This document shows positions 5,832 through 64,000 of a stretch of DNA of 64,000 nucleotides, piece by piece (the first letter of the stretch is position 1; every line of letters begins with the position of its first letter). Position numbers and translations under genes: made by a program. The notes below the pieces were generated by a model. The model was not told the origin of the DNA. It saw nothing but the letters and a program-made list of their open reading frames with translations, and made no database searches. The DNA is taken from assembly GCA_017303715.1 (NCBI GenBank), contig JAFLBZ010000002.1, forward strand, positions 124,001 through 188,000, written 5' to 3'. The DNA is from Rhodothermia bacterium. GTDB taxonomy: Bacteria > Bacteroidota > Rhodothermia > Rhodothermales > UBA2364.

Positions 5832-6161
5832 TTATACCAGCAACAAGATGAATCAAGGGCTTTACGTTATATGCAAGAGCAACAAAGGGCACTATAATCT
5901 CAAAAAGACCCGCCCAATACCCACACAAGCCAACGAACCAATATTGCATTTATGACAAAGTGAGCAGAAGGGATAAATTAAAAGCCTATGATTTCAAATG
6001 GCTTTAGTACGTGTGGAAACAATAACGCAAGTAAACTTATCCTTAGCCAAGCGCCAAACCGTTATCCCATCCGAATTAGCTTGACCCAGCCGGAACATTC
6101 ATTTGCTCCGGCTGTTGCAGTTTCGAGCCAACTTTCCTTACACACCTAACCCACAAACGGT
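5832..6161. other. Intergenic stretch between preA and uvrB
   Basis: I see no coding region here. The only clear structure is the inverted repeat at 6087-6114. The stretch probably holds the end of the pyrimidine operon transcript and the uvrB promoter, but I cannot place promoter boxes with confidence. Confidence 0.5.
6087..6114. terminator. Hairpin between preA and uvrB (possible terminator)
   Basis: A perfect 8-bp inverted repeat, CAGCCGGA at 6087-6094 and TCCGGCTG at 6107-6114, encloses a 12-base loop. It is GC-rich but no clear T tract follows, so it is either a weak or factor-assisted terminator of the pyrimidine operon or a hairpin in the uvrB leader. Confidence 0.4.
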
Positions 6162-12757: not shown

Positions 12758-13375
12758 ATGAAAATTGCCATTATCGGTACTGGGAATGTAGGCGGCGCAT
12801 TAGCCACAAAATGGGCGAATAAAGGACATCGCATCCTGCTGGGCGTGCGCGATACGCAGAATTTCAAAGGGAAAAACCTGCTGAACAACCCCAATACCAG
12901 CGTACATCCCATTCAAGAAGCGGTCGCAGAAGCAGAAGTGATTTTGGTATCTACACCTGCTGCTTTGGCGGTTACGGTCGCACAGTCCTTGGGCGACACA
13001 ACGGGCAAAGTCATTATAGATGCGATGAATATCGTGATGGGGCGCGGGCCAGCGGGTTATACAAATACTGCCGATGCCCTTTTAGCCCATACCCAAACCC
13101 GCGATGTGGTCAAATGTTTTAATACAACGGGCTATAACAATATGCAAAACCCCGTTTATGGCGATATGGCGCTGGACTTATTTGTGGCTGGAGATAGCAC
13201 GCAAGGGAAAGCCATCGCCAGTCAATTAGCCCAAGATGCGGGTTTTTCAGCGTGCTACGACATTGGAGGGAACGATAAGTTTGAACTCATGGAGCAGTTT
13301 GCTTGGTTCTGGATCAATCTGGCTATGTTCAAAGGACAAGGCCGCGAGATCGGATTTAAGCTTTTGAAACGATAA
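12758..13375 (+). CDS. NADPH-dependent F420-reductase-like / NAD(P)-binding oxidoreductase
   Basis: Rossmann-fold protein of 205 residues with MKIAIIGTGNVGGALA at the very N-terminus and a following GVRD that suggests NADP(H) preference. It resembles the F420-reductase-like (NADP oxidoreductase coenzyme F420-dependent) family widely found in bacteria without F420. Conserved VVKCFNTTGYNNM is visible in the middle. It is the last gene of the HxlR-linked run and is followed by a strong hairpin. The last 70 codons plus 9 bases after the stop are duplicated at 14412-14633, on the far side of xisHI. Substrate unknown. Confidence 0.88.
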   Translation: MKIAIIGTGNVGGALATKWANKGHRILLGVRDTQNFKGKNLLNNPNTSVHPIQEAVAEAEVILVSTPAALAVTVAQSLGDTTGKVIIDAMNIVMGRGPAGYTNTADALLAHTQTRDVVKCFNTTGYNNMQNPVYGDMALDLFVAGDSTQGKAIASQLAQDAGFSACYDIGGNDKFELMEQFAWFWINLAMFKGQGREIGFKLLKR

Positions 13376-13384
13376 GAAAATAAA
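13163..13384. repeat. 222-bp direct repeat, copy 1
   Basis: Covers the 3' end of the NAD(P)-binding reductase gene and 9 bases beyond its stop. It matches 14412-14633 with four differences, all transitions; three are silent in the reading frame and one changes Ala to Thr. The 1,027 bases between copies carry a hairpin, xisH, xisI and a short coding fragment. Confidence 0.95.
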
Positions 13385-13390
13385 TACAGA

Positions 13391-13425
13391 TAAACTGGCA
13401 ACTACCTCTCTTGGTTGCCAGTTTA
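13391..13425 (+). terminator. Strong hairpin ending the HxlR-linked operon
   Basis: A perfect 12-bp stem (TAAACTGGCAAC at 13391-13402 with its complement at 13414-13425) and an 11-base loop, 15 bases after the reductase stop codon. The downstream tract is only moderately T-rich. It is absent after the second copy of the repeat, where an IS1-like end takes its place. Confidence 0.75.
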
Positions 13426-13592
13426 CGTTTTCGTGCGCGATGAACCTTGCCAAGGCATCTAAATTCTCAAAGGCAGAAACACCGCGTTTTTGTCTCTTTT
13501 CGTATCGTCGCATCAAGAAACCACCGCATCACCCGAACCAAAGTGGCGTTCTGGTGTTGAAGAAGCAAAGAAGGAACAAGTACACGAACGAT

Positions 13593-14012
13593 ATGCCTGC
13601 CAAAGACAAGCACCATGAAGCCGTAAAGAACGCCCTTGTCAAAGAAGGTTGGACGATTACACACGATCCGTACATGATTCCCATGCAGGATCGCGGCGTG
13701 ATGTACGTGGATATTGGTGCAGAACGGCTCTTGGCTGCGGTGCGAGAAGCAGAAAAAATTGCGGTTGAGGTCAAAACGTTTGGAATGCCTTCTGTTTTAA
13801 GCGAATTTCATCGGGCAGTTGGGCAATATCTGAGTTACAAAGTGATGATGCGAAAACGTGAACCCGACCGACTTTTGTTTTTAGCCATTCCAGATGACCT
13901 TAAAGATTGGTTCATGTACCAAGAAATTGCCATCGAAGTTGTTGCTGATCTGTCTATTCATTTGTTATTTTATGACCCTGCACAAGAAGAAATTACCCAA
14001 TGGATACTTTAA
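13593..14012 (+). CDS. xisH: XisH-family protein (fdxN element excision controlling factor)
   Basis: XisH and XisI are needed, with the recombinase XisF, for excision of the fdxN element in heterocystous cyanobacteria, and occur in pairs in other bacteria. The 139-residue product begins MPAKDKHHEAVKNALVKEGW, the family's typical start, so I prefer the ATG at 13593 over longer in-frame starts at 13440. A PD-(D/E)XK-like pattern is visible: YVDIGAE followed by IAVEVKTF (Asp, then Glu-x-Lys), consistent with the endonuclease-like fold ascribed to XisH. It overlaps xisI by 13 bases. No xisF-like recombinase is seen in the window. Confidence 0.93.
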   Translation: MPAKDKHHEAVKNALVKEGWTITHDPYMIPMQDRGVMYVDIGAERLLAAVREAEKIAVEVKTFGMPSVLSEFHRAVGQYLSYKVMMRKREPDRLLFLAIPDDLKDWFMYQEIAIEVVADLSIHLLFYDPAQEEITQWIL

Positions 14013-14332
14013 ACATACTGAGAAATGCTGTTCAACACATTTTGATAGAATGTGCTGAATACGGAAAACCGCCCGAAGGAATGAAGTTTGAAACCGTTTT
14101 TGATACAGAAAACGATCATTACCTTTGGTTGATCTTGGGTTGGGACGGAAATCGGCGCATTTATAATTGCCTCATTCATCTTGATATTATTGACGAACAG
14201 ATTTGGGTACAACAAAACAATACGGAATTTACCCTCATAGAAGATTTTGAGCGATTCGGCATTTCAAAATACAACATCGTAAATGGCATGATTCACGCAA
14301 ATCGTCGTAGAATGTTGGAAAATGTTGTGTGA
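14000..14332 (+). CDS. xisI: XisI-family protein (partner of XisH)
   Basis: 110 residues, the normal XisI length, with family blocks KFETVFDTENDHYLWLILGWDG and RIYNCLIHLDIIDEQIWVQQNNTE. Known only as a partner of XisH in developmentally regulated excision; its biochemical role is unclear. The start overlaps the end of xisH by 13 bases, so the two are translationally coupled. Both lie within a 1,027-bp segment between direct repeats, next to a decayed IS1-family element, which marks them as accessory genes. Confidence 0.92.
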   Translation: MDTLNILRNAVQHILIECAEYGKPPEGMKFETVFDTENDHYLWLILGWDGNRRIYNCLIHLDIIDEQIWVQQNNTEFTLIEDFERFGISKYNIVNGMIHANRRRMLENVV

Positions 14333-14624
14333 ACGGAATCTCGAAGCAACGTTCCTGCAAGACTTGCGCGACCTCGAAGCGGCGGGCATCACGCATCGCG
14401 ATGTGGCCGAAGATATGGCGCTGGACTTATTTGTAGCTGGAGATAGCACGCAAGGGAAAGCCATCGCCAGTCAATTAGCCCAAGATACGGGTTTTTCAGC
14501 GTGTTATGACATTGGAGGGAACGATAAGTTTGAACTCATGGAGCAGTTTGCTTGGTTCTGGATCAATCTGGCTATGTTCAAAGGACAAGGCCGCGAGATC
14601 GGATTTAAGCTTTTGAAACGATAA
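14322..14624 (+). pseudogene. Chimeric fragment: unknown 5' piece joined to duplicated reductase C-terminus
   Basis: The 100-codon frame has two parts. The first 30 codons (14322-14411), including ATFLQDLRDLEAAGITHRDV, match nothing I recognise and look like the remnant of another gene. From 14412 the sequence is the duplicated C-terminus of the reductase at 12758-13375 (70 codons, one amino-acid change). The Rossmann N-terminus is missing, so this cannot be a working reductase. It probably arose by recombination, and the repeat portion ends exactly where the IS1-like left end begins. Confidence 0.8.
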
Positions 14625-14633
14625 GAAAATAAA
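14412..14633. repeat. 222-bp direct repeat, copy 2
   Basis: Second copy of the 13163-13384 sequence, in the same orientation, 1,249 bp downstream, 218 of 222 positions identical. Its right edge (14633) is directly followed by the GGTAATG left end of the IS1-family element. Homologous recombination between the copies would remove xisH and xisI. Confidence 0.95.
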
Positions 14634-15425
14634 GGTAATGTAATTTAGTGGGTAGTTTGCTTAATTTTGTTCAAAGAAAGACTTGTCATGGTAATTAAAA
14701 AAAAATGTTGTCATAAATGTGGTTCGGAACATATCGTGAAAAATGGTTCGAATAGTTCTGGAAACCCCAAGTACAAGTGCAAAGCGTGTGGTTTTGGGGG
14801 TGTTTTTCAAAGTGTGCGCAAAAGTTAGGCGTTCAAAGAAATGGTTGTGCAGGCGGCCCAAGAACGCACTTCTTCCCGTGGTTTGGGCAGAGTGTTCGGC
14901 ATCAGCCACCAAACAGCCCTCCGTTGGATAAAAAAAAAGCACAATCCCTCCCGGGAATCGTAAGCACGTTGGTTCCAGCCGAAAAAAATGATGTACTCGA
15001 ATTGGACGAGTTGTGGTCATTTGTGTGTAAAAAAGTACAAAAACGATGGGTTTGGATAGCACTTTGCAGACGGACGCGGCAGGTCGTTTCTTTTCACATC
15101 GGGGACAGGTCAGAAAAAACTTGTCGGGCTTTTTGGAATTTGATCCCTGAAAATTACCGAAAATGCAGGTCGTTTAGCGACTTTTGGGAAGCGTATTCAA
15201 CGGTCATAGATACTGGCAAGCATCAAATGGTCGGCAAGGAATCTGGCGAAACCGCCCATGTCGAGCGATGGAATAACACCCTCGTTGGGATAACACGCTT
15301 CGCCAGCGAATTTGCCGCTTCGTCCGAAAAACCCTCTCGTTTTCTAAGAGCGACGAAATGCACAAACTTTATCTGCACTTGTTTATCTACAATTACAATA
15401 CATCACTCGTTAAGTAACATTACTG
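14634..15425 (+). mobile_element. Decayed IS1-family insertion sequence
   Basis: About 792 bp, close to the usual IS1 size. The left end begins GGTAATGTAATTTAG and the right end, ...TTAAGTAACATTACT, is its imperfect inverted complement (about 11 of 15 positions). Inside is an InsA-InsB' type transposase with an in-frame stop and a 17-base duplication. I find no clear target-site duplication; the left flank is the end of the 222-bp repeat. Confidence 0.8.
14688..15417 (+). pseudogene. IS1-family transposase (InsA-InsB' type), inactivated
   Basis: The InsA part starts at 14688 with a zinc ribbon (CCHKCG ... KYKCKACG) and is interrupted by TAG at 14826; the same frame then continues with the helix-turn-helix GLGRVFGISHQTALRWIKK. 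Nine A residues at 14930-14938 followed by G give the slippery heptamer A AAA AAG (14933-14939), after which the catalytic InsB part runs in the -1 frame, as in active IS1. The DDE residues survive: ELDELW, FSDFWEAY and AHVERWNN. Just after the Glu, a 17-base near-duplication (about 15270-15303) shifts the frame; the true C-terminus, [17 protein letters not shown], resumes in another frame up to the stop at 15417. Non-functional as it stands. Confidence 0.88.
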
Positions 15426-15694
15426 AAGAGAGAAATAAGTTGCGCTGGTACAGCTAAATATCCCCTAACCACCTCGGCAGCCGTTCAACATATGGTCGAG
15501 AACGTTCGATTTGCCCAGAACGCACACTGCTACGTAAAGCCGAAGCCAATCACTACGCCTATGGCGCAGGTCGTACCGTCTCGTTCTTCAACGAGCGTAC
15601 TTTGGGGTGCCACCCAACAAGACATGAGCCAAAAAAAAGCCCGAAGTATTAAGGGTAACCTCCGGGCTTTCGTTATCGCATACAGCGACATGGC
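15426..15694. other. Gene-poor scar between the IS1 remnant and the SQR-like gene
   Basis: No complete gene is visible. One plus-strand frame stays open for about 58 codons around 15479-15650 (including RTVSFFNERTLGCHPTR) without a convincing start and looks like a fragment of a lost gene. The right edge is the minus-strand terminator at 15630-15672. Confidence 0.4.
15630..15672 (-). terminator. Rho-independent terminator of the SQR-like flavoprotein gene
   Basis: Read on the minus strand: a stem with AAAGCCCG and CGGGCTTT arms (plus a mismatched extension), a loop of about 13 bases, then eight T residues (15631-15638 complement). It lies 23 bases after the stop codon of the minus-strand flavoprotein gene. 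Confidence 0.85.
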
Positions 15695-62713: not shown

Positions 62714-64000
62714 ATGATCTGGCCACCGATCGCCGATTTTGCTATGTTACAAGAAACCTCTCACAACCTGTATCACCAGCTTTTAGCAGCATTTCCGGCT
62801 GTTAAAGCCTATCGCCCTATAGATTTTTCGACGCCTGAAATGCCTCCTGATATAGGTCATTTTTTACAAAAGGCGTTAGTCCATCGGGCCTCTTTTGAAT
62901 TGGAGCATTTTACCAGTCCTTGGTTTCGGATGGATGCTTCCGGTATAGCGGAAACGTTTGCCTTGCTCAGGAAGCAACTTGGGGAGTTTGCTCAATTTCC
63001 TGCGGAAGACTGGGCCGCAGCCTTGGAAAATGCAACAGGAATTGTCCTAAGTTATCTTGTTAGACCCAGCCATACCTTGGTAGGCTTCGTGTTTGGCCGC
63101 CAGAACGATGCTTTAGCGCCAGAAGTGGTGCTGCGGCGTATGCAATACTTTGCCGCTTATCCCTATTTTACCGAAATCCTATCCGCTTTTTTAGAGCGCA
63201 AACAAGGTGAGGTTCTCGCGAAAGAAAGGTGTTTAGACCTCTTTTCACAGATAGACCGGAAAATGGTCGAGGGCTACGATGTTCCACATTGGTTAACCTT
63301 GCTCAAACCTTTGTTTGAGGTCTTCCGGTTTATCAACCCAGATGGGTCTAATGCCGTTCCTACCACCTTATTGGCCGTTTTTTTTCAAGACAAAGGGGAA
63401 GACGGTTTGTATCGCCGTTTGTTGTTCGAGGGGCAAATACGGCAAAAAGGCGTTTTAAAACCTGACGAACTCCGTACTTTTTTAGAAAATGACCCCAAAG
63501 TTGAAGAAGGACGTTCTGTTTCCTTCCGCTCTCAAAGCGAAACCGGAGAAGATGAAGTAGTGCCACTCGCCGAGTTGGGTTCGGAACGAGATGAAGTAGT
63601 GCCAGCCACCGAGTTGGGTTCGGAACGAGATGAAGTAGTGCCAGTCGCCGAGTTGGGTTCGGAACGAGATGAAGTAGTGCCAGCCACCGAGTTGGGTTCG
63701 GAACGAGATGAAGTAATAACGCCTTTTGGAGAGATTTCAGATATGATGCCAAAAGAGGCTTCTCAAGAGGCTTCTTCAGACTCCGATGATTTTGCCGCAG
63801 CACTTGCGCTGTCTGACCAGCTTGCCAAGACGTTTAAACCCTCCGCTATGTCCATACCCTTGCCCATAGCACCAGAGGTCGTTTCTACATCGGACGAGGC
63901 TCTCCCGCGAAGTGTTGAAGAGGAGGCGCAGCCATCCGCAACAACCGAAACGGACAAGGTTACGGATGAGCACTCAGCAGAACTTGAAGACATTCCAACG
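62714..64000 (+). CDS. Unrecognised acidic protein with 13-residue repeats, partial
   Basis: Frame open to the window end (429 codons seen), so the stop lies beyond it. I do not recognise a family. The first part (about residues 1-265) is helical with blocks such as YLVRPSHTLVGFVFGRQ and VVLRRMQYFAAYPYF. Then four tandem copies of a 13-residue unit DEVVP(x)(x)ELGSER follow (63551-63706), after which a Ser/Glu/Asp-rich, low-complexity tail begins. No signal peptide is clear. A start at 62714 is preceded by GAGGAG only two bases upstream; the ATG at 62744 is an alternative. Unusual composition relative to its neighbours. Confidence 0.7.
   Translation, partial: MIWPPIADFAMLQETSHNLYHQLLAAFPAVKAYRPIDFSTPEMPPDIGHFLQKALVHRASFELEHFTSPWFRMDASGIAETFALLRKQLGEFAQFPAEDWAAALENATGIVLSYLVRPSHTLVGFVFGRQNDALAPEVVLRRMQYFAAYPYFTEILSAFLERKQGEVLAKERCLDLFSQIDRKMVEGYDVPHWLTLLKPLFEVFRFINPDGSNAVPTTLLAVFFQDKGEDGLYRRLLFEGQIRQKGVLKPDELRTFLENDPKVEEGRSVSFRSQSETGEDEVVPLAELGSERDEVVPATELGSERDEVVPVAELGSERDEVVPATELGSERDEVITPFGEISDMMPKEASQEASSDSDDFAAALALSDQLAKTFKPSAMSIPLPIAPEVVSTSDEALPRSVEEEAQPSATTETDKVTDEHSAELEDIPT
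63551..63706. repeat. 39-bp coding minisatellite, four copies
   Basis: Four perfectly phased 39-bp units at 63551, 63590, 63629 and 63668, followed by the first bases of a fifth. Copies 2 and 4 are identical in their variable positions, so a 78-bp higher-order unit is likely. The unit length is a multiple of three and keeps the frame. Confidence 0.95.

Follow-up and report, generated by a model that had tools for sequence, protein, structure and literature searches.

Excision of the fdxN element of Anabaena requires xisH and xisI along with XisF (PMC4874684), and it is because of this one developmental system that XisH and XisI are annotated throughout bacteria as excision-controlling factors. 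Outside the heterocyst-formers, xisHI occurs without xisF (PMC4853749). Another described process, insertion with long target duplication, is known for restriction-modification genes (Nobusato et al. 2000, as cited in PMC3874152 and PMC1643837). Our literature search returned no report that xisHI moves by target duplication or that XisHI is toxic. Here we describe an xisHI pair from a Rhodothermia bacterium, in a window of 64,000 nucleotides (the whole stretch of DNA that was analysed), where the pair lies between two copies of the end of a reductase gene (Table 1). We consider this layout likely to be the scar of a horizontally gained, toxin-antitoxin-like xisHI pair that inserted with a long target duplication.

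Table 1. Features of the xisHI locus, in window coordinates
Feature	Position	Strand	Evidence or remark
NADPH-dependent F420-reductase-like gene (target), intact	12758..13375	+	F420_oxidored PF03807 4e-15; npdG 9e-14
Repeat copy 1	13163..13384	+	last 213 bp of the reductase including stop, plus 9 bp
Hairpin behind the reductase	13391..13425	+	-20.3 kcal/mol, z -3.9; probable terminator
xisH, predicted PD-(D/E)XK nuclease	13593..14012	+	PF08814 1e-45; D40-E59-x-K61-Q78 intact
xisI, partner gene	14000..14332	+	PF08869 4e-29; 3D7Q, 2NLV, 2NVM, 2NWV
79-bp piece between xisI and copy 2	14333..14411	+	GC 61% vs 41% for xisHI
Repeat copy 2	14412..14633	+	orphan reductase 3' end, read as insertion scar
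IS1-family element, transposase frame broken, cuts copy 2	14634..15426	+	DDE_Tnp_IS1 1e-12

The direct repeats are 222 nt long and 98.2% identical, which cannot be chance. An earlier note on this DNA had counted 218 of 222 identical positions with four transitions, and recomputation gave the same result; the differences fall at 13186, 13238, 13255 and 13258, and the one at 13238, Ala to Thr in copy 2, is the only one to change the protein. Because the copies show these four fixed differences, an assembly echo is argued against. The polarity of the differences is mixed and does not indicate which copy is native. The note's account of the 1,027 bases between the copies also stands, with xisH and xisI matched by their Pfam families and the short additional piece corresponding to the 79 bp listed in Table 1. 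This piece, behind xisI, is foreign in composition and had no other match when searched against its own genome, while 208 bp of the insert lie ahead of xisH. The reductase gene is complete with the insert in place. Elsewhere in the window (63550-63715), an 88-bp repeat occurs as two overlapping tandem copies (98.9% identical, period about 78 bp).

The borders of the repeats carry further information about the original event. Copy 2 does stop exactly at an IS1-like end, as the earlier note had claimed: five other IS1 copies in the genome begin at the identical element base, and from this common left end it follows that copy 2 is bounded on its right by IS1 and not by a repeat end of its own. 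A third partial copy, matching 13308-13452 at 99%, lies inverted in the same genome about 18 kb away (L009:8233-8377, 5.6 kb left of the window) and includes the hairpin. Because the hairpin travels with this copy, it is probably the reductase's own terminator, and because the copy extends into the hairpin, more than 222 bases may have been duplicated originally. The third copy also adjoins a fragment resembling the end of an IS5-type transposase.

XisH occurs in 1 of the 89 genera of the class, that of the window. Within this genus, congener G002 lacks xisI and all its xisH copies are broken, and congener G001 has neither gene. Each of the two carries a reductase orthologue (71-74%) whose 3' end is single and not followed by xisHI, but the sequence downstream differs from that in the window; gene order upstream is largely kept in G002. 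On sequence comparison, the patchiness of XisH and the single reductase end of the congeners show xisHI to be an apparently recent, horizontal arrival at the reductase site. The very same gene cluster of G002 contains a 69-bp gene-end duplication without xisHI, in which the 3' end of a GDSL-like gene is repeated (L036:5393-5461 and 6052-6120, 98.6%) on either side of an inserted ORF that closely precedes the reductase orthologue.

Flanking repeats recur around xisHI in another order of the phylum. We sampled 40 xisHI loci from that order and five further loci, together yielding 43 complete pairs, and scored a pair as flanked when a direct repeat reaching 40 bits or more lay no further than 300 bases from it on each side, using ORF modules from the same loci as controls. 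Such repeats flank 10 of 43 xisHI pairs versus 2 of 136 control modules (p ~1e-5, or 4e-5 when two cysS loci of the same genus, L049 and L189, are counted as one event); for the gene-end cases alone, p is 0.003. Three of the ten (L177, L192 and L195) have the appearance of intergenic repeats, not gene ends, and in L171 and L166 the repeat type is less clear than in the other cases. At the clear sites, the duplicated segment is the end of cysS (L049 and L189, 83-84 bp), the end of an RND transporter gene (L181, 138 bp, 98%), the 5' end of a radical-SAM gene (L205, the first 64 bases) or the end of a 900-residue gene (L196, 3193-4872). The last is present in three copies of 67-78 bp, in the cassette-array-like order gene, VapBC, copy, xisHI, copy. 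Copies at the clear sites are 93-98% identical and 64-138 bp long, compared with 222 bp in the window, and the target gene is whole in every clear gene-end case. In L049, L189, L181 and L196, the repeat ends 0-1 base from the gene's stop codon.

The cysS loci delimit the inserted unit most closely. In L049 the stop codon of cysS and the start codon of xisH share bases (TAATG), and xisI stops right at the boundary with the second repeat copy. The inserted unit therefore consists of the two xisHI ORFs alone, and inspection of its sequence found neither a transposase nor terminal repeats. The unit in the window is not such a bare pair, because of its extra 208 bp and 79 bp. Comparison of the insertion sites revealed no common end motif. 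Placement of xisHI behind cysS is identical in three congeners, while two others (G584 and G676) have one cysS 3' end followed by another gene and no xisHI. Copy 2 decays, with an in-frame stop in L189 and loss in G785 and G730. Loss of the second repeat, with xisHI or a remnant of it kept, is what relatives of two examples other than the window show.

The footprint is neither universal for xisHI nor exclusive to it. As a general mark of xisHI it was rejected, since in a mostly cyanobacterial set repeats at the 50-bit level flank 6 of 89 pairs and 24 of 575 ORF modules, with no enrichment, and a wider flanking span gave only p 0.02. Perhaps the cyanobacterial insertions are old. The idea of a footprint restricted to xisHI is weakened by VapC-type pairs from the order of the xisHI survey: with a wider span that leaves room for the antitoxin, and leaving out the contig-end artefacts L238 and L243, repeats flank 8 of 68 loci versus 3 of 121 ORFs, and L289 has a clear gene-end duplication around a VapBC pair. 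Several kinds of mobile gene pair therefore share the footprint, which is at most more pronounced for xisHI.

The proteins themselves are assigned with confidence to their families (155.7 bits for XisH and 101.8 bits for XisI, against a cut-off of 25), and their genes overlap by 13 bases. XisH is a predicted PD-(D/E)XK nuclease. It matches 2INB and 2OKF by both sequence and fold (TM 0.86 for a model with pLDDT 85), the model has a weak likeness to the nickase Nt.BspD6I and the type IIS enzyme PaqCI, and D40, E59, K61 and Q78 are conserved in 118-120 of 120 relatives. An intact xisH without xisI is found in 1 of 36 cases, whereas an intact xisI without an intact xisH is found in 18 of 53 (p 4e-4). 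On plasmids, xisHI pairs neighbour VapC, HigBA and MazE-like genes and also occur within a DISARM operon and a type I restriction operon (L053 and L327), the latter with the order hsdM-xisHI-Uma2-hsdS-hsdR. This genomic pattern is like that of a toxin-antitoxin pair, with XisH as the putative toxin by analogy. PADLOC matched neither protein to a known defence family, and no dedicated accompanying gene recurs among 148 xisHI neighbours in related genomes. In 30 of 41 cases the gene before xisHI has the same orientation, and in ten of these it lies within 20 bases, so that xisHI probably borrows its transcription.

Because the footprint turns up again at unrelated genes, and also around VapBC pairs, we read the layout in the window as an insertion scar. 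Under this explanation, xisHI would have entered horizontally and inserted behind the reductase by long target duplication, the duplication being produced at the time of insertion; copy 1 would keep the reductase whole and copy 2 would be left beyond xisHI as an orphan 3' end. An IS1 element would afterwards have landed in or beside copy 2, with loss of the sequence beyond. The pair itself is most readily seen as a selfish, toxin-antitoxin-like unit in which the predicted nuclease XisH would be kept harmless by XisI. As for the route, illegitimate joining at a gene end, driven by the host and assisted by homology, seems most likely, and a break made by XisH may have contributed. A stronger version, in which XisHI would move autonomously and without a transposase, its nuclease breaking DNA at or near a gene end and repair of the break bringing in a copy of the pair together with a long duplication of that end, we regard as quite unlikely; if true, a toxin-antitoxin-like pair would be spreading through gene ends while leaving the genes unharmed.

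Other histories could produce similar borders. The exact abutment of IS1 on copy 2, together with the lack of any visible target duplication in the sequence around the element at 14634, might suggest that an IS1-driven rearrangement created the duplication and carried in xisHI, but this is extremely improbable given that L049, L181, L189 and L205 have xisHI only, with no IS, between their repeats, and that the window has IS1 at one side only. It is also rather unlikely that the repeat was borne by a donor, whereby DNA of a close relative that already had reductase-xisHI recombined in, homologously on the left and illegitimately on the right, or as a circle by one crossover, and two copies of the gene end were left. 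On this view the 1.8% difference between the copies would reflect donor-recipient divergence, not age. The presence of several cassettes at one gene end in L196, the range of copy identity at the clear sites and the shared position of cysS-xisHI in three congeners are all consistent with such a transfer. Yet it requires that this gene had already received an insertion in the donor, a donor for the window was not found, and the mixed polarity of the four differences speaks against it.

The earlier note had viewed the repeats in terms of excision, with a possible role for XisHI. Homologous recombination can act on long direct repeats and delete what lies between them, and on this general ground we accept that the locus could lose the insert. 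A fuller excision model would have the repeats bound a unit that is removed in some cells by XisHI or homologous recombination, much as in the fdxN element, and it can point to the direct repeats and to the requirement for both genes, with XisF, in that system. As an explanation of the layout we find it very unlikely, and the note's suggestion of an excision role for XisHI is not supported: the reductase is whole without any excision, and at other sites copy 2 decays or vanishes while xisHI or a remnant persists. No recombinase family, XisF-like or other, recurs among the 148 xisHI neighbours in related genomes, a Pfam scan of the genes around xisHI in the window found no xisF, and the repeats vary in length and are unrelated in sequence from site to site. 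Insertion with target duplication largely replaces the excision model.

Our findings suggest that outside the Anabaena system xisHI travels as a compact two-gene unit that duplicates gene ends, in a manner likened to that of restriction-modification genes and some VapBC pairs. The scars described here can be used to study transposase-free insertion of such pairs, and the work opens a direct and cheap way of testing XisHI for toxin-antitoxin behaviour.

The comparison with known systems is instructive in this regard. With the fdxN element of Anabaena, the locus shares an overlapping xisH-xisI pair of the same protein families and folds; it differs in that no xisF was seen here, the target gene is uninterrupted, and the repeats are long gene ends instead of short recombinase sites. 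Type II toxin-antitoxin systems of the VapBC kind resemble xisHI in their two small overlapping genes, their patchy spread, their tolerance of an orphan partner and rarity of an orphan nuclease, and, in L289, an identical insertion footprint, whereas in xisHI the nuclease gene precedes its partner and toxicity is putative. Insertion with long target duplication is matched by the 222-bp, 98.2% identical copies in the window and by the L049 unit, which has no transposase or inverted repeats. As in the restriction-modification insertions, a small nuclease-bearing unit lies between target copies on the order of 100 bp, of variable length and without a linked transposase; the difference is that here the unit is xisHI, and at some loci VapBC, in another phylum.
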